Source of the DNA: Cellulomonas sp. HZM
Lineage (GTDB): Bacteria; Actinomycetota; Actinomycetes; Actinomycetales; Cellulomonadaceae
NCBI RefSeq assembly: GCF_000708885.1
Contig: NZ_JEOE01000005.1
Coordinates: 62,001 to 126,000 of the forward strand
DNA: 64,000 nucleotides
Direction of reading: 5' to 3'
The position numbers and the translations under genes are program-made. The notes beneath the pieces were generated by a model, which saw nothing but the letters and a program-made list of their open reading frames with translations, did no database searches and was not told the origin of the DNA. Shown piece after piece: positions 23,405-61,326 of this stretch. Position 1 is the first letter of the stretch. The number at the start of each line of letters is the position of its first letter.

Positions 23405-23415
23405 CCACGAACGAG

Positions 23416-23498
23416 ATCAGCGGCACTTGTGACGTGTGCCTACTCGTGGGGCGCCGTGGAGGGCGCACGAGTAGTCAGCTGTCACAAGTGCCGCTGAT
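23416..23498. repeat. Long intergenic palindrome, family 2 copy 2
   Basis: Perfect 18-bp outer arms (23416-23433 and 23481-23498, atcagcggcacttgtgac) enclose a perfect 9-bp inner stem (ctactcgtg at 23440-23448 and cacgagtag at 23466-23474). It lies between the converging SRPBCC and NlpC/P60 genes. It shares its outer arms and the actcgtggggcgc centre motif with 9351-9430; the inner stem is absent there. Confidence 0.88.
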
Positions 23499-23572
23499 CA
23501 TGATCCGGCCGCGCCGGAGCCGTCCCGACGGACGACATCACGCTGCGAGCAGGAGAACGCGGCGAGCAGGCG

Positions 23573-41082: not shown

Positions 41083-41152
41083 GCGAGTGCGCCAGTTTCG
41101 GACGAGAGACGAAGTCCAGACGCGCGCGCTCGTCCGAAACTGGCGCACTCGC
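41083..41152. repeat. 70-bp palindromic element, family 1 copy 1
   Basis: Perfect 24-bp arms (41083-41106 and 41129-41152, gcgagtgcgccagtttcgga...) surround a 22-nt loop that begins agacgaagtccaga. Nearly the same sequence recurs at 45135 and 55383. It lies 11 bp beyond the stop of the minus-strand gene ending at 41164. No T-tract follows. Confidence 0.92.
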
Positions 41153-41163
41153 TAGCGGTCCTG

Positions 41164-41598
41164 TCAGGGGGACGGGTGGCGGCGGTACGACGAGAGGAGG
41201 CGGTAGCTCTTCGTCGGGCCGGTGACCGACCACTCCTCGTCGAAGGCGTGCGGGCCGAGCCAGCGGCCCGTCACCACGTACTCGTCGGCGCCGCAGGGGT
41301 GCACCGCGGTCCACTCGCCGGCCACCGGGCGGTAGACGTAGAACGGGCGGCCGTCGGCGAACCGCACCTGGACGCCGTCGGCGCTGCCCGGCCCCCACAG
41401 CAGGTGCCGCTCGGCAGGCCCGCGGTGGTCCCCGTACGTGAGCTCACCGGCCTCGGTCTGGACCACGCCGCCGTCGTCGGCCGCGAACGTCGCGGTCCCG
41501 ACGAACTCCCCGCGCGTGCCGGCCAGCGAGTCGAGCACGAGGCGCCGCACGTCCCACGTGCCGACGAGTCCGTCCAGTCCATCGACCGATCGTGGCAC
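41164..41598 (-). CDS. DUF6314 family protein
   Basis: A 144-residue lipocalin-like beta-barrel candidate: LVGTWDVRRLVLDSLAGTRGEFVGTATF, LTYGDHRGPAERHLLWGPG, VRFADGRPFYVYRP, and VHPCGADEYVVTGRWLG. These are the conserved DUF6314 segments. It is the last gene of the marR-MFS-isochorismatase run, 4 bp after the isochorismatase stop, and so probably co-transcribed. The role is unknown; binding of a small ligand is an inference from the fold. Confidence 0.78.
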   Translation of the reverse strand: MPRSVDGLDGLVGTWDVRRLVLDSLAGTRGEFVGTATFAADDGGVVQTEAGELTYGDHRGPAERHLLWGPGSADGVQVRFADGRPFYVYRPVAGEWTAVHPCGADEYVVTGRWLGPHAFDEEWSVTGPTKSYRLLSSYRRHPSP

Positions 41599-41602
41599 GA
41601 GC

Positions 41603-42175
41603 TCACGCGCCGACGAGCGCCAGCACCTCGTCCGTCGTCCCGGTCTCGCCCAGGCGCGGGAAGATCGCCTCGACCGCGCGCTCGTGGCTCGTCCCGACCA
41701 TGTCGGCCATCGCGTCGGTCACGAGCGTCACGTGGTACCCGTGCTCGTGCGCCGCCCGCGCGGTCGACTCGACGCCCATGCTCGTCGCGATGCCGGTGAG
41801 CACCACCTGCGTGATCCCGCGGCGACGCAGCTGCAGGTCGAGGTCGGTGCCGTAGAAGGCGCCCCAGTTCCGCTTGGTCACGACGACGTCCTGCGGGTGG
41901 CCCGCGAGCTCGTCGACGATCACGTCCCAGCCCTCCGCCCGTGCCGCGGCGGGGCCGCGCTCGGTCCGGCCGTGCGCCCCGTCGGCACCGTCGGCCGCGC
42001 GCGAGACGCGGACCAGCACGACGAGCCGCCCCGCGGCCCGGAACGCGTCGGCCAAGCGGGCGGTCCGCTCGACCACCTCGGCGGCCGTGTGGGGGACGGT
42101 CGGGGCGGCGACGATGCCCCGCTGCAGGTCGATGACGACGAGCGCGCTGGTGGGGTCGATGGTCGAGAGGGTCAT
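41603..42175 (-). CDS. Isochorismatase-like hydrolase
   Basis: A 190-residue cysteine-hydrolase family protein. The Asp of ALVVIDLQRGI, the Lys of TKRNWGAFYGTDLD, and the expected catalytic position in VVLTGIATSMGVESTARAAHEHGY line up with the family. The usual nucleophile Cys (GI.T..CV..TA) is replaced by Met in ATSMGVEST, an odd feature that may mean altered or no catalysis. It is coupled to the MFS gene by a 4-bp overlap. Confidence 0.85.
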   Translation of the reverse strand: MTLSTIDPTSALVVIDLQRGIVAAPTVPHTAAEVVERTARLADAFRAAGRLVVLVRVSRAADGADGAHGRTERGPAAARAEGWDVIVDELAGHPQDVVVTKRNWGAFYGTDLDLQLRRRGITQVVLTGIATSMGVESTARAAHEHGYHVTLVTDAMADMVGTSHERAVEAIFPRLGETGTTDEVLALVGA

Positions 42176-43689
42176 GCGGAGGTCTCCTTGCGGGTGGGGG
42201 TGCCGAGGCCGCGCAGCGAGCGGTCCAGCAGGGTGACGACGACGAGCAGGCCGGCCGCCGCGAGGCAGAACCAGCCCATGTCGTGCAGGCCTGAGGTGGT
42301 GGCGCCGTCGGCGAAGAACGTGGCGTTCGCGGCGGAGGCGACGATCGCGCCGAGGTACGTGAAGGTGCGCAGGAGCCCGGCGGCCGCGCCGATCCGCGCG
42401 GGATCCGCCTGGTGGTAGAGCGCGTTCTGGTTGGCGAGGCTGTTGAGCCCCTGCGGCACGCCCGCGAGCAGCGCGAGGCCGACGAGCAGCGGCACGGGCG
42501 TCGTCGACCCGACGAGCACCAGCGGTGCGCACGCGACGACGAGCGACACCGCACCGACGACGAGCTTGCCGCGCACCTGGGGCCGCCGCCCGGACACGGT
42601 CGTGACGACGATCGCGCCCGCGAACATCGGCAGCAGCACGAGCCCTGCCTGCGACGGCGTGAGCCCGTGCCCGGCCTCGAGCCACTGCGTGTACCCGTAC
42701 AGGAACGAGTACGACACCGTGAGCGCGAGCACCTGGCGGACGTACGTCGCGAGCAGCGGACGGTTGCCGCCGAACACGCGCAGGTCGATGAACGGCTCGC
42801 GCGTGCGCAGCTCCCGCAGCGCGAACCCCACGCCCGCGACGACGGTCACGACGAGGAGCCACGCGGTCCCGGTGCGCGGGTGCATGCCGAACAGCATCAG
42901 GGTCACGAGCGCGGCGCCGAACAGCGCGATCCCCGCGAGGTCCAGCCCGGGCCTCGGCCCGGCCGCCCGCGGGACCCGCGGCAGCCGCCACGTGCCGAGC
43001 ACCAGGCACGCGACCGAGAGCGGCACGTTGACGGTGAAGATCGCGCGCCAGCCGTCGAGCGCGATGAGCAGCCCGCCGAGCGTCGGCCCGACGACCGCGA
43101 CGACCTGGTTGGTGACCGCGAGCAGCGTGAGGATCCCGCTGGGGCTCTCCTGCCCCGTGCGCCGCGACTCGCTGCGGATGAGGTACATCGCCGCGGGGTA
43201 GCCGGCGCACGTGCCGAGCCCGATGAGGACGCGCGCGGCGATCAGCGTGCCGAGGTTCGGCGCGAACGCCCCGAGCAGGCCACCGACCCCGACCATCGCC
43301 GTCCCCGACAGGAACAGCGGCCGCGGACCGTAGGTGTCGACGAGCCGGCCGACGACGGGCTGGCCGACCGACGTCGCGAGGTACAGCGCCGTGACCAGCC
43401 ACGCGGTCGCCGACGGCGGGGCGCCGAACGCGATCCCGATCGGCACGAGCGCGACGGCCAGCATCGAGGAGTTGACCGGGTTGAGCAGCGACCCGAGCAC
43501 CATCGGCGGCACGAGCCGGCGGTCGAACCGCCCGGCCGGAGCCCCGTCGAGCCCGACCCCGCCGGTCGCGCCCGCCGCGGGCGCCTCGTCCCGTCGACGT
43601 GGGCCCTCCCGTCGCGAACGGCCCCCGTCCGGCGCAGCAACCCCCACCTCGCGCGGGGCGGCCGCGCTCGGGCCGGCCGCCCGCGTCAC
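42172..43689 (-). CDS. MFS multidrug exporter (EmrB/QacA-type)
   Basis: A 505-residue membrane transporter with a long charged N-terminal extension (about 45 residues) and about 14 hydrophobic segments. The signature loop reads VGQPVVGRLVDTYGPRPLFLSGT, and the antiporter motif C-like region is VVGPTLGGLLIALDGWRAIFTVNVP, typical of DHA2 drug:H+ antiporters. The start GTG overlaps the marR stop by 4 bp (GTGA), so translation is coupled to the regulator. It probably exports a hydrophobic compound whose presence relieves MarR repression. Confidence 0.88.
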   Translation of the reverse strand: MTRAAGPSAAAPREVGVAAPDGGRSRREGPRRRDEAPAAGATGGVGLDGAPAGRFDRRLVPPMVLGSLLNPVNSSMLAVALVPIGIAFGAPPSATAWLVTALYLATSVGQPVVGRLVDTYGPRPLFLSGTAMVGVGGLLGAFAPNLGTLIAARVLIGLGTCAGYPAAMYLIRSESRRTGQESPSGILTLLAVTNQVVAVVGPTLGGLLIALDGWRAIFTVNVPLSVACLVLGTWRLPRVPRAAGPRPGLDLAGIALFGAALVTLMLFGMHPRTGTAWLLVVTVVAGVGFALRELRTREPFIDLRVFGGNRPLLATYVRQVLALTVSYSFLYGYTQWLEAGHGLTPSQAGLVLLPMFAGAIVVTTVSGRRPQVRGKLVVGAVSLVVACAPLVLVGSTTPVPLLVGLALLAGVPQGLNSLANQNALYHQADPARIGAAAGLLRTFTYLGAIVASAANATFFADGATTSGLHDMGWFCLAAAGLLVVVTLLDRSLRGLGTPTRKETSA

Positions 43690-44114
43690 CGGGCCGTCGC
43701 CTCGTCCAGCAGGTCCATCGCGCGCTGGATCGTCGCCACGTCCTCGTCGGGCAGGGCCGCCAGGCGGGTTGCGAGCCACTCCGCGCGGGCCTCGCGGTCG
43801 CCGGCCGCGCGCTCGCGGCCCGCGTCCGTCAGGACGACGAGCTGGCGACGACCGTCGTCGGGGTCCGCGACCCGCGTGACGAACCCGCGCTCGTCGAGCA
43901 CGGCGATCGTCGCGGCCATCGACTGCGGCCGCACGCCCTCCGCGGCGGCGAACGTGCTGGCGGTGCCGACCTCGCCCTTGCCGAGCCGGATCAGCACCGC
44001 GAGCTGGCTCGCGGACAGGTCGTCGGCCTGCGCGACCTCCCGCATCCGGCGGCGCAGCCGTCCGAAGACGACGCGCACCTGCGTGGCCGTGTCCGCGGCG
44101 GTGGTGGTGGGCAC
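43686..44114 (-). CDS. MarR family transcriptional regulator
   Basis: A 142-residue winged-helix regulator: VFGRLRRRMREVAQADDLSASQLAVLIRLGKGEVG, recognition region TFAAAEGVRPQSMAATIAVLDERGFV, and wing VADPDDGRRQLVVLTDAG. The GTG at 44114 is used; there is no clear ribosome binding site. It is the first gene of a four-gene operon (regulator, exporter, isochorismatase-like, DUF6314). The short dyad ACTG-N2-CAGT at 44144-44153 lies 30 bp upstream and could be its operator. Confidence 0.88.
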   Translation of the reverse strand: MPTTTAADTATQVRVVFGRLRRRMREVAQADDLSASQLAVLIRLGKGEVGTASTFAAAEGVRPQSMAATIAVLDERGFVTRVADPDDGRRQLVVLTDAGRERAAGDREARAEWLATRLAALPDEDVATIQRAMDLLDEATAR

Positions 44115-44179
44115 GCCATCGACGGTACGCCTCGACAGCCCAAACTGCACAGTCCAACCTGTCGATCGCGTCCTGGGTC

Positions 44180-44241
44180 CGCCGAGCAAGCAGGTGGTCT
44201 CGCCATGGACCGGCTGAACGAAACCAACCGCTTGCTCGGCG
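44180..44241. repeat. 12-bp inverted repeat with 38-bp loop in divergent gap
   Basis: cgccgagcaagc at 44180-44191 is perfectly repeated in inverted form at 44230-44241. It lies 28 bp upstream of the MBL-fold gene and 66 bp from the marR start, so it could be a leader hairpin or paired operator sites. No known riboswitch motif was recognised. Confidence 0.6.
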
Positions 44242-44268
44242 CGGTCGGCGCGGGCAGGCTCGGGGCGC

Positions 44269-45081
44269 ATGTGGTGGATCTGCGCGACGTGTGGCGTCGA
44301 GCACGGGGAGCGGGTCGACGTGTGCGCCGTGTGCGCCGACGAGCGGCAGTGGGTGCCCGCGTCCGGGCAGTCGTGGACCACGCTCGACGAGCTCGCGGCC
44401 GCCGGCACGCACGTCGACGTGCGCGAGCTCGAGCCCGACCTCTTCGGGCTGACGACCTCGCCCGGCGTGGGGATCGGCCAGGAGTCCAAGGTGGTCCGGA
44501 CGTCGGTCGGGATGCTGCTGTGGGACCCGCTCGGGTACGTGGACGACGAGGCGGTCGCCGCGGTGCGTGCGCTCGGGGAGGTCGTGGCCGTCGTCGCGAG
44601 CCACCCGCACATGTTCGGCGTGCAGGTCGAGTGGTCGCGCGCGGTGGGTGGCGTGCCGGTGCTCGTCGCAGAGGCGGACCGGCACTGGGTGGCGCGCGAG
44701 GACCCGGCGATCGAGTCGTGGCGCGGCGAGCTCGAGGTGCTGCCGGGGGTCGTGCTGTCCCAGCCGGGCGGTCACTTCCCGGGCAGCGCGGTGGTCCACT
44801 GGGCGGCGGGGGCCGACGGGCGCGGCGCGCTGCTGAGCGGGGACACGATCTTCGCCAACCCCGACCGCACGTCGGTCAGCTTCATGCGGAGCTACCCCAA
44901 CCGCATCCCGCTGTCGGGCGCGGTCGCCGAGCGGGTGGCGGCCCACGTCGCGCGCCGCCCGTTCGAGCGGATGTACAACAACTTCGAGGGTGTCATCCCG
45001 GCGGACGCGCGCGAGGTCGTCCTGCGCTCGGCCGCCCGCCACGCCGCCTGGACCCGCGGCGACCACGACTCCCTGACCTGA
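44269..45081 (+). CDS. MBL-fold hydrolase with N-terminal zinc ribbon
   Basis: A 270-residue protein. The first 30 residues hold a CxxC...CxxC knuckle (ICATCGVEHGERVDVCAVCADERQ), a rubredoxin/zinc-ribbon type. A metallo-beta-lactamase fold follows: VVAVVASHPHMFG in the position of HxHxDH, GGHFPGSAVVHW, and ALLSGDTIFANPDR with the bridging Asp. The first metal motif lacks the Asp-His pair and the last His is not evident, so metal loading may be partial. The start ATG at 44269 places the zinc ribbon at the very N-terminus. Function unknown. Confidence 0.78.
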   Translation: MWWICATCGVEHGERVDVCAVCADERQWVPASGQSWTTLDELAAAGTHVDVRELEPDLFGLTTSPGVGIGQESKVVRTSVGMLLWDPLGYVDDEAVAAVRALGEVVAVVASHPHMFGVQVEWSRAVGGVPVLVAEADRHWVAREDPAIESWRGELEVLPGVVLSQPGGHFPGSAVVHWAAGADGRGALLSGDTIFANPDRTSVSFMRSYPNRIPLSGAVAERVAAHVARRPFERMYNNFEGVIPADAREVVLRSAARHAAWTRGDHDSLT

Positions 45082-45115
45082 CCAGGCCTGACCTGACCAG
45101 GCCTGACCTGGCCGG
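45072..45115. repeat. 15-bp tandem repeat
   Basis: The unit cctgacctgaccagg occurs twice in full (45072-45086, 45087-45101), with a third partial and diverged copy to 45115. It begins inside the last codons of the MBL-fold gene and supplies its stop codon, so recent slippage may have altered the C-terminus. Confidence 0.8.
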
Positions 45116-45134
45116 CCCGGTCCGGCCCCGCCCA

Positions 45135-45204
45135 CCGAGTGCGCAAGTTTCCGACGAGAGACGCAGTCCAGACTGGCGCACTCGTCGGAAACCCGCGCAC
45201 TCGG
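45135..45204. repeat. 70-bp palindromic element, family 1 copy 2
   Basis: Arms at 45135-45158 and 45181-45204 (22 of 24 pairs) enclose a 22-nt loop, agacgcagtccaga.... Relative to the copy at 41083, base pairs 1 and 18 have both partners exchanged (G-C to C-G), so pairing is kept. It lies between the converging MBL and GH30 genes. Confidence 0.92.
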
Positions 45205-45222
45205 CGCGGACGGCGGGCGGGA

Positions 45223-47154
45223 TCAGCGGTAGACGCGGATGTCGGCCAGGCTCCACCACGAGCCCGACGACGCCGTCGTCGTGACCCGCACGTATCGGGC
45301 CGTCGTCCGGCCGAGGTCGAGGCGGAGCAGCTGGCCCGTCCCGGTGCCGGCCGCGACCTGGTGCCAGATGTGCCCGTCGCGGCTCGTCGTCACCGTGTAC
45401 CCGCGTGCGTAGTCGCCGAGGTTGTCCCCGGAGTCCACGTCGAGGGTCGAGAACGTGCGCACGCGCCCGAGGTCCACCTGCAGGTACTGACCCGGCTCCT
45501 GTGCGGCTCCCGACGACCAGCGGGTCGACGCGTCGCCGTCGACCGCGAGCGCCGCGTCACCCGCGTTCACCGACGCCGTGGCCGACGAGACCGGGACCGA
45601 CCGCAGGTCGGAGCGCAGCGCCTTCGACGCCGGCCAGGTGAACGTCGCCAGGGCACCCCCGGGCAGCGTGTACTCGAACGAGCGGGACCCCACGCGCACC
45701 GCGAACGAGCGCGGGTCGTCGTTCTCGTTGTGCACGACGAGCGCCGTCGACCCGTCGGGGTTCCGGAACGCGACGTCCATGATCTGCCCGTTCCACCCGG
45801 TGGTCCCGAAGGACGTCGACCCGATGCGGACCGCGCCGGGCTTCACGAACTTCGAGAGGTGGCCGATCGTGTAGTACTCGGCGTCGGTGCGGACCGTCCC
45901 GTCGTCGAGCACGGTGACCAGTCCGGTGCACGTGTCGCAGCCGCCGTTGTGCGGGCCGCCGTTCTCGTCGAGCGCGATGTTCCAGTTGACCACCGACTTC
46001 GCCCAGTTCCGCGGGGTGCCGATCGTGAGCGTGCGGGCGTGCCACGTGAGCGTGCCGCGGAAGATCTGCGCGTCGGTGTCGTCGGGCCCGTGCGAGCCCG
46101 AGCACTCGGTGAACCAGATGCCCTTGCGCGGGTACGCGTCGTGCAGCGCGGTCTGCGCCGACGGGTCGCCGTAGTAGCAGTGGTAGGCGGTGCCGGCGAC
46201 CCACCTCGCGGCGGCGCTGTCGAGCAGCTGGTACGGGTAGTCCGTCCCGGGGTCCTCGCCCGGGGGCGTGCTCGCGGCGTCGTTGGGGTGGGTCTGCCAG
46301 TTGTGGTCGTAGCCGAGGATCTTGGTGCGCGGGCTGGCCTTCTTGAGCAGCGGGCCGAGCGCCTCGATCACCTTGATCTCCTGCGTGACCGGCATGTCCG
46401 TGCCGGGGTAGCCGCTGGGCGTGCGGTTCTGCGGCTCGTTCTGCACGGTGAGGTAGTCGACCGGGACGCCGGCGCGGGCGTACGCCTGCACGAACTTCAC
46501 GAGGTAGCGGGCGTAGGCGTCGTAGACCTTCGGGTCGTCCTTGAGCCGGCCGCCGACGAGCGAGTCGCCGGTCTTCATCCACGCCGGCGGGCTCCACGGC
46601 GTCGCGAGCACTGTCAGCTGCGGGTTGAGCTTCTTGGCCTGGCGCAGCAGCGGGAGGACCTGCTTCTCGTCGTGAGCGATCGAGAAGTGCTTCAGCGCGA
46701 AGTCCGTCTTCCCAGGGGCGACGTCGTCGAACGTGTAGTGCTCGGCCTCGGCGGTGAAGTCCGACGAGCCGACGGGCTGGCGCAGGAAGCTCACGCCGAT
46801 GCCCGTGCGCGGGTCGAACAGCTTCTTCATCGTGGCGTCGCGCTGCGTCTTCGGAAGCGCGGACAGGACGTGGGCCGACGAGTCCGTGATGGACGCGCCG
46901 AACCCGTCCATCGTCTGGAACGTCTGGTCGGGGTCGACGACGATCGTCGAGAGATCCGACGAGCCCTGCGTGAACGGCACCGAGGCGCGCTGGTGCAGCA
47001 GCTCGGACCGGTCGACCGTGGTGACCCACACCTGGGCCTGCGGCGTCGCGCCGCCGGTCGGGTGGCCGTGCCGGTCGTCGTGCGCGGCCGCCGGGGGGAC
47101 GGCCAGCGCGATCGCGGCGGTGGCGCCGACGAGCGCGAGGGTGGTTCTCCTCAT
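45223..47154 (-). CDS. Secreted GH30 endo-beta-1,6-glucanase-like enzyme with discoidin/CBM32 module
   Basis: A 643-residue secreted enzyme. A signal peptide ending near PPAAAHDD is followed by a GH30 barrel starting at FQTMDGFGASITDSSAHVL. The acid/base Glu240 is in VQNEPQN and the nucleophile Glu350 is in FTECSG; PWSPPAWMKT is also typical. The GH30 beta-sandwich follows, and a C-terminal discoidin domain occupies about residues 515-643 (DGDASTRWSSGAAQEPGQYLQVDLG). Features fit subfamily GH30_3, whose members cut beta-1,6-glucan of fungal walls; glucosylceramidase-type activity is an alternative. The ATG at 47154 has GGAG upstream. It is divergent from a LacI regulator, with likely operators between. 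Confidence 0.88.
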   Translation of the reverse strand: MRRTTLALVGATAAIALAVPPAAAHDDRHGHPTGGATPQAQVWVTTVDRSELLHQRASVPFTQGSSDLSTIVVDPDQTFQTMDGFGASITDSSAHVLSALPKTQRDATMKKLFDPRTGIGVSFLRQPVGSSDFTAEAEHYTFDDVAPGKTDFALKHFSIAHDEKQVLPLLRQAKKLNPQLTVLATPWSPPAWMKTGDSLVGGRLKDDPKVYDAYARYLVKFVQAYARAGVPVDYLTVQNEPQNRTPSGYPGTDMPVTQEIKVIEALGPLLKKASPRTKILGYDHNWQTHPNDAASTPPGEDPGTDYPYQLLDSAAARWVAGTAYHCYYGDPSAQTALHDAYPRKGIWFTECSGSHGPDDTDAQIFRGTLTWHARTLTIGTPRNWAKSVVNWNIALDENGGPHNGGCDTCTGLVTVLDDGTVRTDAEYYTIGHLSKFVKPGAVRIGSTSFGTTGWNGQIMDVAFRNPDGSTALVVHNENDDPRSFAVRVGSRSFEYTLPGGALATFTWPASKALRSDLRSVPVSSATASVNAGDAALAVDGDASTRWSSGAAQEPGQYLQVDLGRVRTFSTLDVDSGDNLGDYARGYTVTTSRDGHIWHQVAAGTGTGQLLRLDLGRTTARYVRVTTTASSGSWWSLADIRVYR

Positions 47155-47211
47155 CTCACTCTCCATCGAGTAGACGTGGGGCCGCCCGAGTGAAACAACC
47201 TGTAACATCGG

Positions 47212-47277
47212 GCGAACCGGTTGCAACCGTACAGAACACCCCGCGACGATGCGCATGTCAACTGCAGCGAACGGTTC
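47212..47277. promoter_or_regulatory. Putative LacI-type operators between GH30 and its regulator
   Basis: Two dyads lie in the 150-bp divergent gap: gcgaaccggttgc (47212-47224, core AACCGGTT) and gaacggttc (47269-47277). The first has the central-CG form expected of LacI-family sites. Direct repeats of GAAAC...TGTAACA near both starts may be promoter parts. Confidence 0.62.
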
Positions 47278-47304
47278 CCTTCGATGAAACGGCGGATGTA
47301 ACAC

Positions 47305-48321
47305 ATGCCCACTGTCCGCGACGTCGCCGCCCAGGCCGGCGTCTCCATCGCCACCGTCTCGCGCGTCCTCAACGGCGCCGACAACGTCGCACCCGCGACC
47401 CGCGCCCGTGTCGAGCAGGCGCTCGCGGCCGGAGGCACCACGGCCCCCGTGCCGCGCGCGTCGACGGGCGCCCGCAGCGGCCCGGTGTTCGTGCGCTGCC
47501 CGTACGTGCTCTCGGACTACTTCGGGCCCATCGTCTCCGCCGTCGCGGAGGCGCTCGACCTGCACGGCCGCACCATGCTGCTCGACGCGGGCGAGTCGGC
47601 GCAGGCGGGCCACCCGTTGTCGACGCTGCCGGTGCGCGACGTCGCCGGCGCGGTCCTGGTGCTCCCGCCGGAACCGGGCGAGGAGCTCGTCGCGCTGCGC
47701 CGACGAGGCTTCCCGTTCGTCGTCGTCGACCCGCGCGTGCCGCCCCCGCGGGACGTCGCCGCGGTCTCCGCCGCCCACTTCTCCGGCGCGCGCCAGGTCA
47801 CGCAGCACCTGCTCGCGCTCGGGCACCGTCGGATCGGCCTTGTGGCCGGCCCGCGCGAGTGGGTCGCCGGCAACGACCGCTACGCGGGCCACGCCGCGGC
47901 GATGGTCGACGTCGGGATCCTGCCCCCGCCCGAGCTGGTCCGGCACGCGCACGCCACCACGCAGGACGGCCACCGCGCGGCGGGCGAGCTGCTCGACCTG
48001 CCCGACCGGCCCACCGCGATCGTCTGCTTCAACGACCAGACCGCGGTGGGCGCGCTGCACGCCGCCGCGGAGCGCGGGCTGCGCGTCCCGGACGACGTCT
48101 CGGTGACCGGGTTCGACGACATCGAGGTGAGCCGCGCGACGACGCCCGAGCTCACGACCGTGCGCCAGCCGCTCGCGGAGATGGGGCGCATCGCCGTGAG
48201 CCTGCTCGCCCGACTCGTGGCGCGGCAGAAGGTCGACGCGCTGCACGTGGAGCTCGCGACCGAGCTGGTGGTGCGGGGGTCGACGGGCGCCGTGCGGTCG
48301 TCGCCTGGAGCAAACGGGTGA
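47305..48321 (+). CDS. LacI family transcriptional regulator
   Basis: A 338-residue repressor: TVRDVAAQAGVSIATVSRVLNGADNVAPATRARV helix-turn-helix and hinge, and a sugar-binding domain with FVRCPYVLSDYFGPIVSAVAEAL, GHRRIGLVAGPREWVAGNDRY, AIVCFNDQTAVGAL, and SVTGFDDIEVSRATTPELTTVRQP. The start ATG at 47305 lies 8 bp after GGCGGA. It is divergent from the GH30 gene and presumably controls it in response to a glucan oligosaccharide such as gentiobiose (inference). It is clearly different from the MalR-like protein at 24743-25759. Confidence 0.9.
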   Translation: MPTVRDVAAQAGVSIATVSRVLNGADNVAPATRARVEQALAAGGTTAPVPRASTGARSGPVFVRCPYVLSDYFGPIVSAVAEALDLHGRTMLLDAGESAQAGHPLSTLPVRDVAGAVLVLPPEPGEELVALRRRGFPFVVVDPRVPPPRDVAAVSAAHFSGARQVTQHLLALGHRRIGLVAGPREWVAGNDRYAGHAAAMVDVGILPPPELVRHAHATTQDGHRAAGELLDLPDRPTAIVCFNDQTAVGALHAAAERGLRVPDDVSVTGFDDIEVSRATTPELTTVRQPLAEMGRIAVSLLARLVARQKVDALHVELATELVVRGSTGAVRSSPGANG

Positions 48322-48464
48322 TCTGCGGACCGCCCGTGCGTGCCGGCTCATGCGTCGTCGAGACTCTGCCGAAGATGTTCGGGTCTGGGTGAAATGTCTC
48401 GAGGGGGATCGGTGCGCAGGTTGTTCGGTCGGGCGACGACGAGCGGGGTCCGGGGTGAGCGCGC

Positions 48465-49529
48465 TTGAGGTTCCATGACGTCCCGCTGGACCAGGCAGAG
48501 CTGTTCCGGGACCACGTGATCGCGCGGGAGCCGTACATGTTGCGGGAGCTGGCGTCGTGGATGGAGCAGACGGGCGGCCCGATCGAGCTGATGGACGCCT
48601 CGGTCACTTCTCTGATCCGGATGTGCGACTGGTATCTCGACTTAGCACGCGCCGGGTTCTTGGGCCTGGTCGACGACGCCGTCCCGGCGAGGTACCCAGA
48701 GCTGACGCTCGCGGAACAGAGGTCGCATCCGCACGCCGTGGCTCGGCGTCTGTCCGCGGCTGCCGGGGATCGTCTCGTGCACTACGTGCGCCTGGTCTGG
48801 GGTCGCTTGGTGCCCGAGTCCTACTGGGGTGTGTACACGGAACGACGCAGGCCCTTCGCGGAAAATCTCCGTCATCAGACCGTGGTCTTCTTGCCCGGAT
48901 GGCACTGGCCCGACCGCAAAGACATCGACTGGTCCGTCTTCGTGCAGGACAGCGCCGGCATCGGCTTCGGGGCCATGACCGGGGCGGCCGGGGAGTCCGA
49001 CCGGCTGGCATGGAGTGTTGCCAGCAGCTGCCCCCGGGACCTCAGGCCATGGCAGCAGTCCCGAGAGTCATCTGTTCTCACGGGCTATCTCGAGGCCGAC
49101 CTGCCGCCGATGCCTGAGATCGCGCGGGTGACTCCGGCGTTGGCGTGGGTGAGTGCGCCGGTGGAGCCGGAGGTGCGCGCAGCGGGCGACGGTGAGTGGG
49201 ACGAGATGGTGTTGGCGAAGGGGCCGGTGGGCGGGCTCGAGGAGCCGGGGCTGTTGGTGCCGTTGCCGGTGGATGCGGTGGTGGGGGCCTTGCGGGCCGC
49301 GGGGTTCGTCGGTGTCGATGCTCGTGGTGTCCTGGCGGAGGGGGAGTTCGAGCACGCCGAGGGTGTCGCGCACGTGATGACGTTGGTCCACGGAGGTGAG
49401 CTCAGGGCGGTGCACGTGGAGCCGGTGTCGCCCTCGGAGTCGTCGTGGGAGGCGGTGCTCGCGCCCCTGCGGATGCTGGCGGTCGACCTCGGGGCGAACT
49501 TCGGCCCGGCCGGCGACTACCCGGCGTGA
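48465..49529 (+). CDS. Orphan hypothetical protein
   Basis: A 354-residue soluble protein with a TTG start at 48465 after GGGGTGAG. The N-terminal 120 residues are helical and charged (FRDHVIAREPYMLRELASWMEQ, RMCDWYLDLARAGFLG). The middle is Trp-rich (VRLVWGRLVPESYWGVYTERRRPF, FLPGWHWPDRKDIDW). The C-terminal 120 residues are acidic with repeated PVEPEV/GPVGGLEEPG/PVSPSE turns. No signal, membrane or catalytic motif is visible and I do not recognise a family. Its composition differs between halves: the C-terminal half uses many GTG/GAG codons. The gene is flanked by unrelated carbohydrate genes. Confidence 0.6.
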   Translation: MRFHDVPLDQAELFRDHVIAREPYMLRELASWMEQTGGPIELMDASVTSLIRMCDWYLDLARAGFLGLVDDAVPARYPELTLAEQRSHPHAVARRLSAAAGDRLVHYVRLVWGRLVPESYWGVYTERRRPFAENLRHQTVVFLPGWHWPDRKDIDWSVFVQDSAGIGFGAMTGAAGESDRLAWSVASSCPRDLRPWQQSRESSVLTGYLEADLPPMPEIARVTPALAWVSAPVEPEVRAAGDGEWDEMVLAKGPVGGLEEPGLLVPLPVDAVVGALRAAGFVGVDARGVLAEGEFEHAEGVAHVMTLVHGGELRAVHVEPVSPSESSWEAVLAPLRMLAVDLGANFGPAGDYPA

Positions 49530-49571
49530 TGCCTGGTGAACACGATTCACCGACCTACGCGGCGGTACGGG

Positions 49572-49599
49572 TTGACACGGATTGTCCGAAAGGTACGTT
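49572..49599 (+). promoter_or_regulatory. Sigma70-type promoter for the GH55-like gene
   Basis: TTGACA at 49572-49577 and TACGTT at 49594-49599 are separated by 16 bp, about 100 bp before the ATG at 49701. This is one of the best matches to a housekeeping promoter in the window. The leader between holds no recognised riboswitch. Confidence 0.65.
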
Positions 49600-49700
49600 G
49601 GGCCTGACCCGCGGCAGCCGACACCCCCCGACGCCAACGATGGCGAACGGTCCGGAGGCCTGACGGGCCTTGTCGATCCTCATCGTCGAAAGGTCGATCC

Positions 49701-51593
49701 ATGCTGCCCAGCACGCACCCACGTCGGCTCCGCCGGCCCCGCAGAGCGCTCTCCGCGCTGCTCGCGGTGGCCCTCGCCGGCACCGTCTCCGCCCTGGCCG
49801 TCGCGCCCGCGAGCGCGCACGGCTCGTCGTCGTCGGACCCCGATCTCGGCCCCCACACCATCGTGTTCGACCCGAGCATGCCGGTCGACCAGATCCAGGC
49901 GAAGGTCGACGCGATCCACGCCCAGCAGGTCGACGCCGAGATGGGCGACGGCCGCTACGCGATCCTGTTCAAGCCCGGCACGTACGGCACCACCGAGCAC
50001 CCGCTGCGCTTCCAGGTCGGGTACTACACCGAGGTCGCAGGGCTCGGGCAGAACCCCGGCGACGTCAAGATCAACGGCGCGATCGAGGTCTACAACCGCT
50101 GCCTGCCCGTCCCCGAGGGCTCGGACCCCAACTGCATCGCGCTCGTGAACTTCTGGCGCTCCCTGTCCAACCTGTCGATCAACTTCGTCGGCGGGGGCGA
50201 CGGCTGCCGCGACAGCGCCAACTTCTGGGCCGTGTCGCAGGCGGCGCCCATGCGCCGCGTCGAGCTCACGGGCGCCAACCTCTCGCTCATGGACTACTGC
50301 ACGGCCGGGCCGCAGTACGCGTCCGGCGGGTTCATCGCCGACTCGAAGATGCCGTTCGTGGTGAGCGGGAGCCAGCAGCAGTTCATCACCCGCAACAGCT
50401 CGGTCGAGGGCTGGAGCAACTTCGTGTGGAACCAGGTGTTCTCCGGCGTGGAGGGCGCGCCCGCGGGCGGTGCCTTCACCGACGACAACAAGTACACGAC
50501 GATCGCCGCGACGCCCGTCTCGCGTGAGAAGCCGTACCTGTACGTCGACGGCAAGGGGAAGTGGAACGTCTTCGTCCCCGCGGCGCAGAAGAGCTCGGTC
50601 GGGACGTCGTGGAAGAACGGCTCGACCCCGGGCCGGTCGGTGCCGCTGTCGAAGTTCTACGTCGCCAAGCCCGGTGACTCCGTCAAGCGCATCAACCTCG
50701 AGCTGCTCGCGGGCAAGAACCTGCTGCTCACGCCGGGGATCTACGACAACGACCGCACGATCCTCGTGCCGCGCGCCAACCAGGTGGTGCTGGGCCTGGG
50801 GCTCGCGACGATCGTGCCCGAGAACGGTGTCGTGGGGCTGCAGACGCTCGACGCGCCGGGCATCGACGTCGCCGGGCTCATGTTCGACGCGGGTGCCAAG
50901 AACTCGCCCGCGCTGCTCGTCGTCGGCACGCAGCTGTCGAAGATCGACGGCCTGCTCAAGAAGCAGCACCTGTCCGACCCGTCCAACCCGACCGCGCTGC
51001 AGGACGTGTTCTTCCGCGTCGGCGGTGCCCACGTCGGCAAGGCCACGCAGTCGCTCGTGGTCAACGCGAACAACGTCGTCGTGGACCACACGTGGGCGTG
51101 GCGCGCGGACCACGGCCAGGGCGTCGGCTGGACCGTCAACACCGCCGAGACCGGCGTGCTGGTCAACGGCAACGACGTGCTCGCGACGGGTCTGTTCGCC
51201 GAGCACTACCAGAAGTACAACGTCGTGTGGAACGGCGAGCGCGGCACGACGATCTTCTTCCAGAACGAGCTGCCGTACGACGCACCGAACCAGGCGGCGT
51301 GGAAGCACGGCTCGACGCTCGGCTGGGCCGCGTACAAGGTCGCGCCGAACGTGAAGAAGCACGAGGCGTGGGGTCTGGGCAGCTACATCTACACGAACGT
51401 CGACCCGACGCTGCACGCCACGCAGTCGTTCGAGGTGCCGACGACCGCGGGGGTCAAGCTGCGCAACATGATCATCGTGTCGCTCAACAACGCCGGGACC
51501 ATCGACCACGTCGTCAACGGCGTGGGCGGCCCGGCGGCGGCCGCGCCTGGTGGCTCGACCACGGCCTACCTCGCGGAGTACCCGCAGCCGTGA
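49701..51593 (+). CDS. Secreted GH55-like beta-1,3-glucanase
   Basis: A 630-residue secreted protein: a twin-Arg-like n-region (RRLRRPRRALSALLAVALAG) and signal peptide, then two parallel beta-helix halves. Segments such as HTIVFDPSMPVDQIQAKVDAI, AILFKPGTYG, VGYYTEVAGLG, FWRSLSNLSI, CTAGPQYASGGF and EGWSNFVWNQVFSG resemble bacterial GH55 laminarinases, often listed as coagulation-factor 5/8 domain proteins. Length matches that group. The QNELPYD segment with Glu523 is in the region of the GH55 general acid; I cannot align it rigorously. Expected activity is exo-hydrolysis of beta-1,3-glucan. The start has AAAGG at 49689. It is probably monocistronic, between its own promoter and a strong terminator. 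Confidence 0.72.
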   Translation: MLPSTHPRRLRRPRRALSALLAVALAGTVSALAVAPASAHGSSSSDPDLGPHTIVFDPSMPVDQIQAKVDAIHAQQVDAEMGDGRYAILFKPGTYGTTEHPLRFQVGYYTEVAGLGQNPGDVKINGAIEVYNRCLPVPEGSDPNCIALVNFWRSLSNLSINFVGGGDGCRDSANFWAVSQAAPMRRVELTGANLSLMDYCTAGPQYASGGFIADSKMPFVVSGSQQQFITRNSSVEGWSNFVWNQVFSGVEGAPAGGAFTDDNKYTTIAATPVSREKPYLYVDGKGKWNVFVPAAQKSSVGTSWKNGSTPGRSVPLSKFYVAKPGDSVKRINLELLAGKNLLLTPGIYDNDRTILVPRANQVVLGLGLATIVPENGVVGLQTLDAPGIDVAGLMFDAGAKNSPALLVVGTQLSKIDGLLKKQHLSDPSNPTALQDVFFRVGGAHVGKATQSLVVNANNVVVDHTWAWRADHGQGVGWTVNTAETGVLVNGNDVLATGLFAEHYQKYNVVWNGERGTTIFFQNELPYDAPNQAAWKHGSTLGWAAYKVAPNVKKHEAWGLGSYIYTNVDPTLHATQSFEVPTTAGVKLRNMIIVSLNNAGTIDHVVNGVGGPAAAAPGGSTTAYLAEYPQP

Positions 51594-51620
51594 CCGTGCG
51601 GCACGCGGGCTCACGCTAGA

Positions 51621-51683
51621 GGCCGACGACGAGCGGGCCGCCTCCCCTCACCGGGAGGTGGCCCGCTCGATCGTCGTCCGGCC
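51621..51683. terminator. Bidirectional hairpin terminator
   Basis: A long imperfect stem (ggccgacgacgagcgggcc... at 51621-51646 pairing with 51652-51683) with a 5-nt loop lies between the converging GH55-like and YCII genes, 28 bp and 8 bp from their stops. There is no T-tract. Confidence 0.85.
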
Positions 51684-51690
51684 CACCCGG

Positions 51691-52023
51691 CTACATCGCG
51701 GCGCGGACCTCGATCGGCAGCCCCGTCGCGTGCGCGAACCGCCCGGCCCACGAGACCGCCTCGGCACGGTCGTGCACCTCGACCACGGTGAACCCGCCGA
51801 CCGACTCGTCGGAGGCCACCACGGGGCCGGTCGACTCGTGCACGTCGCGGCCGTCGGCCCGGACGGTCGTCGTCTGCGCCGCGGGCTCGAGACCGCACGC
51901 GAACACCCACAGCCCCGCGGTGCGCAGCTCCTGGTCCAGCGCGTCGACGTCGCGCATGATCTCGTCGATGTTCGCGGGCGCCGGCCCCTGCGGCTGCACG
52001 AACGTGAGCACGAACTTGGCCAC
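51691..52023 (-). CDS. YCII-related domain protein
   Basis: A 110-residue dimeric alpha/beta-barrel (YCII) protein of the type often paired with ECF sigma factors: FVLTFVQPQG at the start, GLWVFACGLEPAAQTTTVRA, and DESVGGFTVVEVHDRAEAVSWAGRF. The start is GTG 52023 with GGAGG upstream. No sigma factor is adjacent here. Role unknown; family members are small-molecule-binding or dehalogenase-like proteins. Confidence 0.82.
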   Translation of the reverse strand: MAKFVLTFVQPQGPAPANIDEIMRDVDALDQELRTAGLWVFACGLEPAAQTTTVRADGRDVHESTGPVVASDESVGGFTVVEVHDRAEAVSWAGRFAHATGLPIEVRAAM

Positions 52024-52168
52024 CGTGTCCTCCAACGGTCCGGTGCCGCACGCGGTGCGCGGCGGGACCCATCTCACTCCGGTCGGCCCCGTCGCGCATC
52101 CTGCGTGCCTCCCGCGTGCAGCCGGCCGTGGGGTTGTCGTCGCCCGGCGCGCGTGGCAGCGTCGCCGT

Positions 52169-53149
52169 GTGACCGACGAGGACGCACAGCTCCCCGCCCA
52201 GCAGGTTCCCGACGAGCAGCTTCCCGACGAGTGGGACCCCGACCAGCTCCCCGCCCAGCACGGCCGCACGTTCGTCGTGACCGGCGCCAACAGCGGCACC
52301 GGTTTCGAGGCCGCGCTCGCGCTCGCGGGGGCGGGTGCGCACGTGGTGCTCGCGGTGCGCGACGGGTTCAAGGGCCAGGCCGCGGCGGACCGGATCCGCG
52401 GGCAGCACCCCGACGCGTCCCTCGACGTGCGCCGGGTGGACCTCGCGTCGCTGCGCTCGGTGCGCGGCTTCGCGGCCGACCTCCTGCGCGAGGTCCCGCG
52501 CATCGACGTGCTCGTCAACAACGCCGGCGTGATGGCCCCGCCGCGCCGGTTCCAGACGGTCGACGGCTTCGAGCTGCAGCTGGGCACCAACTTCCTGGGC
52601 CCGTTCGCGCTCACCAACCTGCTGCTCCCACGGCTGCTCGAGTCGCCCGCGCCCCGCGTCGTCACCATGAGCTCGGGCGTCGCGCTGTGGGGTCGCATCC
52701 ACCACCAGGACCTGCAGTGGGTGCACGGCTACCGACCGCAGCGCGCGTACGCGCAGTCCAAGCTGGCCGACCTCTACCTCGCGCAGCACCTCGCGCGTGC
52801 GGCGGACGCCCGGGGGTGGGACCTGCGCAGCACCGCCGCGCACCCCGGGTTCGCGCGCACCAACCTGCAGACCGCGGGGGCCGCCCTGGGCCGCGACAAG
52901 CCGCGCCGCTCGCTGTTCACCGTGCTCCCGGTGCCCTCGCAGTCGGCGGCCGCAGGCGCGGAGCCGCTGCTGGCGGCGGCCACCGACCCGGCCGTGGCGA
53001 ACGGCGCCTACCTCGGCCCGGCCGGCCCCCTCGGCCTCGTCGGCCCGCCCGCCCCGGTCCACCTGACGCGCCGCATGCGTGACCCGCGCGCTGCGGCATG
53101 GCTGTGGCAGGAGTCCGAGCGCCTCACAGGCACCCACCTGCCCCACTGA
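52169..53149 (+). CDS. Short-chain dehydrogenase/reductase (retinol-dehydrogenase-like)
   Basis: A 326-residue NAD(P)-dependent oxidoreductase. An unusual 30-residue N-terminal extension carries three QLPA/QLPDE-like repeats. It is followed by TFVVTGANSGTGFEAALALA (cofactor motif at 38-45), VLVNNAGVMAPP, MSSGVALWG and the catalytic Tyr194-Lys198 (YAQSK). The layout fits the WWOX/retinol-dehydrogenase-like SDR group. The start is GTG 52169. It is divergent from the YCII gene across 145 bp. The substrate is unknown. Confidence 0.88.
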   Translation: MTDEDAQLPAQQVPDEQLPDEWDPDQLPAQHGRTFVVTGANSGTGFEAALALAGAGAHVVLAVRDGFKGQAAADRIRGQHPDASLDVRRVDLASLRSVRGFAADLLREVPRIDVLVNNAGVMAPPRRFQTVDGFELQLGTNFLGPFALTNLLLPRLLESPAPRVVTMSSGVALWGRIHHQDLQWVHGYRPQRAYAQSKLADLYLAQHLARAADARGWDLRSTAAHPGFARTNLQTAGAALGRDKPRRSLFTVLPVPSQSAAAGAEPLLAAATDPAVANGAYLGPAGPLGLVGPPAPVHLTRRMRDPRAAAWLWQESERLTGTHLPH

Positions 53150-53406
53150 CCGGGGTCGGCTCGCGCCCGCCGGCTCCGCGTGACTCGTCGGCGTCGACGA
53201 GAGCGCGCGTCCGGCCCGAGAGCGAGGGTTCTACGTTCGACTCTCGCGCCGAAGGCTCGCGCTCGCGGGTGCCCGGCGCCCGCCGGGCGGGAGCCGGGGG
53301 CGCGGGGAGGAATGGTGAAAGAACGGGTGGCGGCGGGCTCCGCAGTGGTTGAGTGGGGCAAGGTTCCGCGACGAGCGGCGGCCTCACCCCCCTCGAAGGA
53401 GAGCAG
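53150..53406. other. Intergenic gap between SDR and PBP genes
   Basis: 257 bp without a credible gene. It contains a perfect 8-bp stem palindrome gcccggcg/cgccgggc (53271-53288) and, just before the PBP start, the ribosome binding site AAGGAGAG. No clear promoter hexamers were found. Confidence 0.6.
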
Positions 53407-55356
53407 ATGTCGCGTGCCGTGCGCCGGGTCCCCGTCCTCGCGCTGACCGCCGGGCTGAGCGCTGCCGCGCTCGTCGCCGGGCTCGCGGGGTGCTCGCACG
53501 AGCCGCCCGGGCCGCAGGCCGAGGCGAAGGCGTTGGCCGCCGCGCTCTCGTCGGGCAGCTTCACGGCCGTGCACCTGACGGACGGCACGGCGGCGGCCGA
53601 CGAGCGGACGGCGGCGTTCGAGGCGCTCGGGAACCGGACGCCCGAGGTGAAGGTCGCGTCGGTCGTCGTCGACCCGGACGACGACACGGCCGCGACCGTG
53701 AAGCTCGACTGGTCGTGGGACATGGCGGCGCCCGACGACTGGACGTACACCGTCGTCGGCGCGATGCACCGCGAGAAGGACGAGTGGTCCACGGCGTGGA
53801 ACCCCGCGCTGCTCGCGCCGGACCTCACGGCCGACGAGAAGGTCGTCGTGCACCGGGTGCAGGGCGCGCGGGCCGACGTGCTGGGCGCGAACGACGTGCC
53901 GCTCGTGACCGAGCGCGCGGTGCAGCGCATCGGCATCGACAAGACCCACGTCGCCGCCGCGGACCAGCCGAAGGCCGCGAAGGCCCTGGCCACGGCGCTC
54001 GACATCGACTCGGCGGCCTACGTGAAGCGGGTCGCGGGTGCCGGGTCGAAGGCGTTCGTCGAGGCGATCGTCGTCCGCGACGGCGACAAGGCGTACGACG
54101 TCGCGAAGCTGACCGCGATCGACGGGGTGTCTGCGGTCGCCGACAAGATCCCGCTCGCGCCGACCCGGACGTTCGCGCGGCCGGTGCTCGGCACGGTGGG
54201 CGCTGCGACCGCGGAGATCGTCGAGAAGTCCGACGGGCAGGTCGCGGCCGGCGACACCACGGGCCTGTCCGGCCTGCAGCGGCAGTACGACGCGCAGCTG
54301 CGCGGGACGCCGGGCATGACCGTGGACGCGGTCGACGGCGACGGCGCGGAGCGGCAGCTGTTCGAGGTCGCCGCGACGGACGGGACGCCGCTGCGCACGA
54401 CGATCGACGAGACGCTCCAGACGATCGCGGAGGACACGCTCGCGAAGGTCGGTCCGGCGAGCGCGCTCGTCGCGATCCGGCCCTCGACCGGGGACGTGCT
54501 CGCGGTCGCGAGCGGTCCGGGCGGCAACGGGATGTCCACCGCGACGCTCGGCCAGTTCGCACCGGGCTCCACGTTCAAGGTGGTCTCGACGCTCGCGCTG
54601 CTGCGCACGGGCCTGTCCGCGGACTCGGGGGTCACCTGCCCGACGAGCATCACGGTCGACGGCCGCGAGTTCCGCAACTTCCCCGACTACCCGAGCGCGC
54701 ACACCGGCGACATCGACCTGCGCACCGCGTTCGCCAACTCGTGCAACACGGCGTTCATCGGCCAGCGGGACACCGTCTCGCAGGACGACGTGATCGCCGC
54801 CGCGGGGTCGCTCGGGCTCACCGGCTCGGGCCCGCTCGGCTTCGCGGCGTTCCTGGGGGCGGTCCCCTCGGACTCCAAGGGCACCGACCACGCGGCGACG
54901 ATGATCGGCCAGGCGCGCGTGCTCGCCTCGCCGCTCGGCATGGCGACGGTCGCGGCGTCGGTCGCGCACGGCGCGACGGTGGTGCCGCGGCTCGTCGTGC
55001 CCTCGTCGGACGCGACGCCCACGCCCACGGCCTCGCTGTCCGCGACCCCGGCGCCCACCGAGTCTGCGCGACCCGTGGTCGCCCTCACCGCCGACGAGGC
55101 GAAGGAGCTGCACGGCCTCATGCGCGGCGTCGTGACGTCGGGCGGCGCGACGTTCCTGCAGGACGTGCCCGGCGGGGAGGTCGCGGCGAAGACCGGCACC
55201 GCCCAGTTCGGCACGGGCGACGACCTGAAGAACCACGTGTGGATGATCGCGATCCAGGGCGACCTGGCCGTGGCGGTCTTCGTCGACGAGGGCGTCTACG
55301 GCTCGACGACGGCCGGCCCGCTCCTGGAGCGCTTCCTCACCAACATCCCCCGCTGA
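53407..55356 (+). CDS. Class B penicillin-binding protein (lipoprotein transpeptidase)
   Basis: A 649-residue envelope enzyme that cross-links peptidoglycan stem peptides. The N-terminus has a lipobox (AGLAGC) instead of a transmembrane anchor. A MecA_N/NTF2-like domain follows (about 40-150), then a PBP-dimer domain (about 160-330). The transpeptidase domain carries Ser388-x-x-Lys391 (GSTFK), Ser445-Cys-Asn (SCN) and Lys595-Thr-Gly (KTG). This layout resembles the PBP2a/PbpA-like actinobacterial lipoproteins, which tend to have low beta-lactam affinity (family knowledge). A TPTPTASLSATPAPTES linker is inserted before the KTG motif. The ATG at 53407 has AAGGAG upstream. Confidence 0.92.
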   Translation: MSRAVRRVPVLALTAGLSAAALVAGLAGCSHEPPGPQAEAKALAAALSSGSFTAVHLTDGTAAADERTAAFEALGNRTPEVKVASVVVDPDDDTAATVKLDWSWDMAAPDDWTYTVVGAMHREKDEWSTAWNPALLAPDLTADEKVVVHRVQGARADVLGANDVPLVTERAVQRIGIDKTHVAAADQPKAAKALATALDIDSAAYVKRVAGAGSKAFVEAIVVRDGDKAYDVAKLTAIDGVSAVADKIPLAPTRTFARPVLGTVGAATAEIVEKSDGQVAAGDTTGLSGLQRQYDAQLRGTPGMTVDAVDGDGAERQLFEVAATDGTPLRTTIDETLQTIAEDTLAKVGPASALVAIRPSTGDVLAVASGPGGNGMSTATLGQFAPGSTFKVVSTLALLRTGLSADSGVTCPTSITVDGREFRNFPDYPSAHTGDIDLRTAFANSCNTAFIGQRDTVSQDDVIAAAGSLGLTGSGPLGFAAFLGAVPSDSKGTDHAATMIGQARVLASPLGMATVAASVAHGATVVPRLVVPSSDATPTPTASLSATPAPTESARPVVALTADEAKELHGLMRGVVTSGGATFLQDVPGGEVAAKTGTAQFGTGDDLKNHVWMIAIQGDLAVAVFVDEGVYGSTTAGPLLERFLTNIPR

Positions 55357-55382
55357 CCCCGCACTCACCCACCTAGCGCCGA

Positions 55383-55452
55383 GCGAGCGCGCCAGTTTCG
55401 GACGAGAGACGAAGTCCAGACGCGCTCACTCGTCCGAAACTGGCGCACTCGC
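55383..55452. repeat. 70-bp palindromic element, family 1 copy 3
   Basis: Arms at 55383-55406 and 55429-55452 (23 of 24 pairs; the exception is G-U when read from the minus strand) and a 22-nt loop starting agacgaagtccaga. It is almost identical to 41083-41152. It lies between the converging PBP and GH87 genes, 27 bp after the PBP stop. Confidence 0.92.
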
Positions 55453-55480
55453 CGCCGACCCGGGCGAGCCGCAGACGCCG

Positions 55481-61242: not shown

Positions 61243-61326
61243 TGTCAGCGAAACGGCAAACCCTCCGCAAGGAGGGGACGCAAAGCCACGGGACCCACGA
61301 CGGTCAGCCGGGCTACCGAACAGACA
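61243..61326 (+). promoter_or_regulatory. c-di-GMP-I riboswitch (GEMM-I)
   Basis: The conserved aptamer blocks are all present. These are a TGTC/GACA closing stem, GGCAAACC, a CTCC-GCAA-GGAG hairpin with a GNRA loop (tetraloop receptor partner), GGGACGCAAAGCC, ACGGGACC, and a second hairpin ending AGCCGGGCTACCG. This is the actinobacterial form of GEMM-I. The aptamer ends 10 bp before an ATG, so control of translation initiation is more likely than termination. Whether the ligand is c-di-GMP or a variant dinucleotide was not resolved. Confidence 0.94.

Follow-up and report, generated by a model that had tools for sequence, protein, structure and literature searches.

The 64,000-nucleotide (nt) stretch of the Cellulomonas sp. 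HZM genome analysed here (contig NZ_JEOE01000005.1, positions 62,001 to 126,000), referred to as the window, contains four copies of a short palindromic element located beside or between genes. Elements of the same family also bracket the genes of a two-domain protein, predicted to be a nuclease, in related genomes. Three of the hairpins had been predicted from the sequence alone at 41083, 45135 and 55383, and all three are present at these positions. The fourth belongs to a diverged subfamily.

Copy 1: 41083..41153, with a 69-nt core at 41084-41152; direct units at 41084-41098 and 41103-41117, inverted units at 41118-41132 and 41137-41151; 11 nt short of the stop (41164) of a leftward DUF6314 gene
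Copy 2: 45135..45205, architecture as in copy 1; between convergent genes ending at 45081 (+) and 45223 (-)
Copy 3: 55383..55453, architecture as in copy 1; between convergent genes ending at 55356 (+) and 55532 (-)
Copy 4: 53197..53265, minus strand, diverged subfamily; between two rightward genes, the first ending at 53149 and the second starting at 53419

Copy 4 scores 55.6 bits (E = 1.9e-10) with covariance model R2, built from 32 copies of several species, and reaches E = 1e-3 with model R1, built from six copies. The proposed placement of the first three copies also stands, with copies 2 and 3 between convergent genes and copy 1 at the end of a leftward gene. The element copies are flanked by several glycoside hydrolase genes (GH3, GH30, alpha-1,3-glucanase) between 38634 and 59776.

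Fourfold form of the element

The element is 69 nt long and consists of two direct 15-nt units with a period of 19, followed by two inverted units. Across the family, its size is 69-72 nt and the unit period 19-20, while the units themselves are species-specific. An alignment of 32 copies spans 69 columns and is gap-free. Shifting the copies by 19 positions against themselves gives an identity of 0.654 within the 5' half and 0.773 within the 3' half (0.867 and 0.778 in other species), where shuffles give 0.27-0.29. When the 69 columns are folded into a 32-pair hairpin, 81.3% of the pair cells stand, against 70.0% with the 3' letters shuffled and 28-43% in slid controls; the covariation score of the hairpin is 0.302 versus 0.124. 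In the subfamily of copies 1-3, the inner units have lost most of their pairing, and their sequence is conserved almost to the level of the arms, as shared descent explains.

This architecture changes how the hairpins are to be read. The original prediction described 24-nt arms around a 22-nt loop; the 22-nt centre is correct, whereas the arms measure 23 nt, and those of copy 1 can be extended to 29 nt at 93%. Copy 2 does show two pairing-preserving G-C to C-G exchanges relative to copy 1, at the outermost pair and at columns 17/52, but two arm pairs (columns 10 and 11) are broken as well. The loop pattern GAGAGACGMAGTCCAGAC, allowing up to 3 mismatches, matches the window 3 times against 0.25 expected, and none of 100 shuffles reaches 3. 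Over 13 copies of one subfamily, the arms have mean column identities of 0.90 and 0.91; columns 24-38 reach 0.88 and columns 39-45 reach 0.73. The loop is thus conserved nearly as well as the arms, but it is not distinct from them, being the inner pair of units. It had been argued that a conserved loop sets these hairpins apart from terminators; this argument does not hold, since what was taken for a loop consists of two repeat units, which in the subfamily of copies 1-3 are degenerate. A role as structured RNA was not borne out either: no Rfam family matches the window hairpins at its gathering score, and arm covariation is expected of a DNA palindrome as well. No T-run lies at the flanks of the three window copies.

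Copy number, setting and the search for a transposase

A search of the window's whole genome with R1 returned 49 matches at E ≤ 1. With the two strands of a hairpin taken as one site, and likewise the two inverted ends of contig C54, this leaves at least 21 sites at E ≤ 1e-3. This excludes the possibility that only the three predicted copies exist. With R2, 62 of the 81 genus genomes have matches; the per-genome counts include both strands, with at most 62 candidates scored per genome under strict filters. Beyond the genus, R1 has two matches in one genome (G096) of another family of the same order. The exact arm pattern has no match among the named genomes, a set from which near relatives of the window's genome are possibly left out.

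Two arrangements in the window's genome stand apart. On contig C9 (47878-48267; locus L075, 3879-4268), a block of 205-217 bp is repeated between divergent genes, so that two subfamilies alternate in a row of four elements within 390 bp. Contig C54 (locus L077), 13.5 kb long, carries at both ends inverted copies of the same genes and an element, and is probably an assembly fold-back at the palindromes.

The copies proved to be mostly extragenic and often lie 6-60 nt past a stop codon. Placement of 52 copies gave 19 between convergent genes, 19 between tandem genes, 8 between divergent genes, 4 inside predicted genes, and 2 at contig edges; genes were called with an in-house gene finder, weak matches are included, and four of the 8 divergent cases form one cluster. 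The background gene sample for these orientation counts is small and includes element sites. In the window's genome, two of the 21 sites are genic: one copy lies in hemG (ERAGLGRERVSGLARSSGTGALA) and one in a copper ATPase gene (ERASLGRETRSGHARSTGSGALA), each adding 69 nt, or 23 codons, in frame. The HemG insert is missing from all 29 of the 29 aligned orthologues (30 of 76 matching genomes were aligned). In a comparison of the copper ATPase with one orthologue, the linker of the orthologue is shorter at the position of the insert. A HemG match in another genome (G019:C1:1099735-1101318) is split in two near query residues 243-251, which suggests another hemG insertion. Among 16 copies, neither target-site duplication (compared with shuffled flanks) nor flank pairing indicative of insertion into pre-existing hairpins is in excess.

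The original prediction favoured a mobile palindrome resembling repetitive extragenic palindromic (REP) elements or miniature inverted-repeat transposable elements (MITEs), possibly with a REP-associated tyrosine transposase (RAYT) of the Y1 type as its partner. The dispersed, REP-like family is there, with in-frame genic copies besides its many sites; the Y1 partner is not. The Y1 family PF01797 has no match in the window's genome, and a search of 48 genus genomes yielded a match in one only (G052). No isolated transposon ends were found in the draft assembly, because all 32 half-arm matches sit in full hairpins. DUF559 genes in general were also tried as partner and rejected: there are 0-2 per genome (28 genomes), and an element lies beside only one of 18, with a weak score (24 bits, E ≤ 0.01), in a set that includes distant members of the nuclease family described below.

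A two-domain protein bracketed by the palindrome

In three species, element copies lie next to genes that encode proteins of one family, about 310 amino acids long. Profile A4, built from these three element-adjoining members and one more, matches 74 of the 81 genus genomes at E ≤ 1e-15. The structure of the protein is predicted with a local distance difference test score (pLDDT) of 94 and a template modelling score (pTM) of 0.91. In VIA-align comparisons with this model, residues 3-186 align with the AbiEi antitoxin 6y8q (Z 10.8, root-mean-square deviation (rmsd) 6.4, 164 residues), while residues 191-292 align with the homing endonuclease I-Bth0305I 3r3p (Z 10.5, rmsd 3.1, 94 residues) and with Vsr 1cw0 (Z 8.5). 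The protein is therefore predicted to combine an AbiEi-like half with a Vsr/I-Bth0305I-like endonuclease half. Residues D225, E236, D238, G239, K242 and Y243 are invariant in the 36 sequences of profile A6. Among 22 members, PADLOC AbiEi models match all 22, and weak Pfam matches comprise MTES_1575 REase (18), AbiEi_4 (10) and DUF559 (6). A sequence search of the Protein Data Bank (PDB) gave no match. The AbiEii toxin is absent from the 10 neighbouring proteins of six loci. The plasmid search gave six partial matches, none spanning 80% of the protein, and the phage collection gave none.

Bracketing was scored at 30 loci, the best A4 match of each of 30 genomes, by scanning for R2 elements within 275 bp of the gene. 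At E ≤ 0.05, 23 of the 30 loci carry an element at one or more ends (5' side 20, 3' side 22, both ends 19); at E ≤ 1e-3, the numbers are 21 for at least one end and 15 for both. Without the three seed loci, which had been chosen for their adjoining elements, 20 of 27 loci have an element at one or more ends and 17 at both (E ≤ 0.05). Seven loci lack an R2 match: strong palindromes with a different sequence occur at four of them (L208, L210, L218, L224) and weaker ones at L226, and L211 and L214 are without any. In a control set of 29 HemG loci from relatives, no element was detected at E ≤ 0.01. Together with the DUF559 loci mentioned above, this identifies the bracketed group as the AbiEi-fused family, not DUF559 genes in general. 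An element, weak in one case, accompanies 13 of another 20 members retrieved by position, and it often has units of its own.

The window's genome has two family members. The gene on contig C58 ends inside an element, its stop codon TGA being part of the palindrome, and the contig breaks off on the 5' side of the gene. The second, on contig C21, has an in-frame stop and elements on both sides.

Bracketing was also scored by palindrome strength alone at 80 named loci from Cellulomonas, Cellulosimicrobium, Promicromonospora, Sanguibacter, Isoptericola, Actinotalea, Arthrobacter and others, partly the same genomes as in the 30-locus set. A score of at least 13 (95th percentile of 611 control windows, 12) is reached at one or more ends in 63 loci and at both ends in 28. 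Compared with other genes at the named loci, family genes have a palindrome more often at either end (42/59 versus 54/273) and at both ends (16/59 versus 3/273), and more often have 8-mers common to both ends (23/59 versus 4/273). Where both palindromes are present (28 loci), one end of the locus is the best match of the other in 22 cases (mean 0.303 versus 0.008).

In 10 of 18 genomes the dispersed copies match the brackets found in that genome better than any others (rank 1), and the observed mean is reached by none of 20,000 permutations; with fewer brackets, rank 1 is obtained in 6 of 16. The dispersed copies themselves lie away from the family gene, which is found at none of 54 loci in the fetched stretch of up to 1.5 kb on either side. 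Over 22 loci, palindrome similarity tracks protein similarity (Mantel r 0.589, p 0.0001), with r 0.61 for the N-terminal and 0.50 for the C-terminal half. Presence is associated as well: with the protein called at E ≤ 1e-50, a cut picked after the table was seen, 53 genomes have both, 5 the protein only, 9 the element only and 14 neither (Fisher p 2.6e-6), and at the search's own cut of 1e-15 the numbers are 60, 14, 2 and 5 (p 0.007).

The bracketed gene is often found at the same place in different species, and 13 loci share one site, which in locus L220 lies between genes for an extracytoplasmic function (ECF)-type sigma factor and an Nramp protein. In 23 of the 25 pairs shown for this site, both neighbours are better conserved than the protein, whose mean identity is 56% (78 pairs).

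Three other features of the window may be recorded. A large inverted repeat at 23415-23499 has 34-nt arms, 88% complementary and 17 nt apart, between a rightward gene ending at 23404 and a leftward gene ending at 23573. A second inverted repeat, at 44180-44241, has 23-nt arms that are 87% complementary and lies at the junction of two predicted rightward genes. A c-di-GMP-I-GGC riboswitch aptamer at 61247-61321 (+) scores 61.1 bits against a gathering score of 59 and is located upstream of a small predicted rightward gene.

Interpretation and relation to known systems

The association between palindrome and nuclease is well supported. The dispersed family, its fourfold form, the copies within genes, the bracketing, the match to brackets of the same genome and the co-variation with the protein are all direct observations. 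The palindromes look like tiny genome parasites spread by a type of enzyme that is not known to act in this way, because the same species-specific sequence also flanks the genes of the predicted nuclease. With a probability of roughly 0.6, the hairpins are non-autonomous REP-like palindromic DNA elements whose partner is the resident AbiEi-like/Vsr-I-Bth0305I-like protein, in a REPtron-like arrangement where a homing-endonuclease-like enzyme takes the role of the HUH transposase. Movement by the nuclease is inferred: the AbiEi-like half would recognise the units, the Vsr-like half would cut or nick the DNA, and repair of the cut would copy the palindrome to new sites. Copies may persist mostly near gene 3' ends where insertion is least harmful. 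Whether the arrangement amounts to a new class of palindrome dispersal is an even bet. In such a class, widespread in Micrococcales, a Vsr-type enzyme with an AbiEi-derived domain would read the four 15-nt units and spread the palindrome, protein and units changing together in a species-specific manner, as a REPtron without HUH transposase.

Several observations weigh against this interpretation. No movement was observed, and a comparison of the sister genomes G026 and G044 found no empty site at the nucleotide level; the two genomes share two element copies, and the region of a third copy is broken by contig ends. Target-site duplication was not found in the 16 copies examined. In eight of the 18 genomes the dispersed copies fit foreign brackets better (ranks 5-13 of 22 in G080, G025, G024, G043 and G075, and 2-4 in G041, G004 and G060), and seven of the 20 further family members are without an R2 element. 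Nine genomes have elements and no strong protein match (G006 has 32 element matches and no protein match, G056 and G074 have weak ones only), five have a strong protein match and no elements, and the presence tests treat genomes without phylogenetic correction. A Foldseek search returned no PDB match at E ≤ 0.001, the best being Rv2827c 1zel at 1.2e-3, with 3r3p at 0.036. An in-frame stop occurs in three of the 13 genes at the shared site. Finally, the nuclease gene is largely vertical in its inheritance, as it is often at the same place in different species, and the palindromes change in step at both of its ends. Frequent movement of the gene itself is therefore not claimed. RAYT genes are also largely vertical.

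The palindromes could instead be recognition or operator sites of the AbiEi-like nuclease, serving autoregulation or defence, so that the dispersed copies are regulatory targets or marks of self and not mobile. AbiEi proteins bind inverted repeats at their own promoter, the N-terminal half is AbiEi-like according to both its fold and the PADLOC models, and the bracketed genes are vertically kept. This explanation is rather unlikely, as copies also stand 3' of the gene, at unrelated gene ends and in frame within hemG and the copper ATPase gene, and no AbiEii toxin occurs among the 10 neighbouring proteins checked at six loci. The setting of the 52 copies, 19 of them between convergent and 19 between tandem genes and many shortly past a stop codon, would suit bidirectional terminators or mRNA-end hairpins multiplied by recombination, with the nuclease link secondary. 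Such an origin is improbable in view of the fixed fourfold form with species-specific units, the in-frame genic copies and the bracketing of one gene family; moreover, the three window hairpins lack the T-run of an intrinsic terminator.

According to another proposal, nuclease and palindrome form a homing-type cassette that merely maintains itself where it is, and the dispersed palindromes were left behind by cassettes since lost. The predicted homing-endonuclease-like fold, the lower conservation of the protein relative to its neighbours at the shared site and the nine genomes with elements and no strong protein match are consistent with it. The proposal is nevertheless very doubtful: all 54 dispersed loci are free of the family gene in the stretch fetched around them, in 10 of 18 genomes the dispersed copies find their best match in a living cassette of that genome, and the HemG site argues for the gain of a single palindrome where no cassette ever stood. 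A classical REP/RAYT system or a MITE of a DDE transposon would equally produce small, dispersed, mostly extragenic palindromes in many copies. It is largely refuted and the least credible of these readings, given that the window's genome has no Y1 transposase, that all 32 half-arm matches lie in full hairpins, and that neither target-site duplication nor an autonomous partner with the same ends was found.

The interpretation as palindromic elements with a nuclease partner invites comparison with REPtrons. PMC3733652 describes REPs as palindromes of 20-40 bp with an unpaired GTAG or CGTC tag; GTAG REPs are accompanied by a RAYT (a Y1/HUH transposase), and CGTC REPs have no known enzyme. The family described here resembles them in its dispersed palindromes mostly 3' of genes, in its species-specific families and in an enzyme gene flanked by the same palindrome, which in 10 of 18 genomes is the best match of the dispersed copies. 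It differs in that the element is 69-72 nt long with four units, that the unpaired GTAG/CGTC tag is not encountered (the terminal CGAG of the element is paired), and that the flanked gene encodes a predicted AbiEi-Vsr-like nuclease instead of a Y1 RAYT. Rickettsia palindromic elements (RPEs) are likewise palindromic and insert in frame into protein genes, as seen here for HemG and the copper ATPase. However, RPEs measure about 150 bp, with 44 genic integrations reported for one species in PMC10969869, whereas most copies here are extragenic.

The protein, too, has relatives in known systems. Its C-terminal domain is predicted to share the fold of the Vsr/I-Bth0305I (EDxHD) endonucleases, with D225, E236, D238 and K242 among its invariant residues; in contrast to these enzymes, it is joined to an AbiEi-like half, and palindromes bracket its gene. 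The N-terminal domain resembles the antitoxin of the type IV toxin-antitoxin system AbiE in fold and in its PADLOC matches, but carries a nuclease domain and has no AbiEii among the neighbours checked. Among the matches listed from open-licence PMC papers, none describes a link between such palindromes and a nuclease.

To our knowledge, HUH transposases (RAYTs) are the only enzymes tied to small palindromic repeats. A palindrome-bracketed nuclease of another fold that shares the palindrome sequence would be a testable second answer beside them. The family may also show the role of some of the solitary AbiEi/DUF559-like genes of actinobacteria, which are often labelled as parts of toxin-antitoxin systems. 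The co-variation of protein and DNA units over 22 loci represents a natural specificity series.

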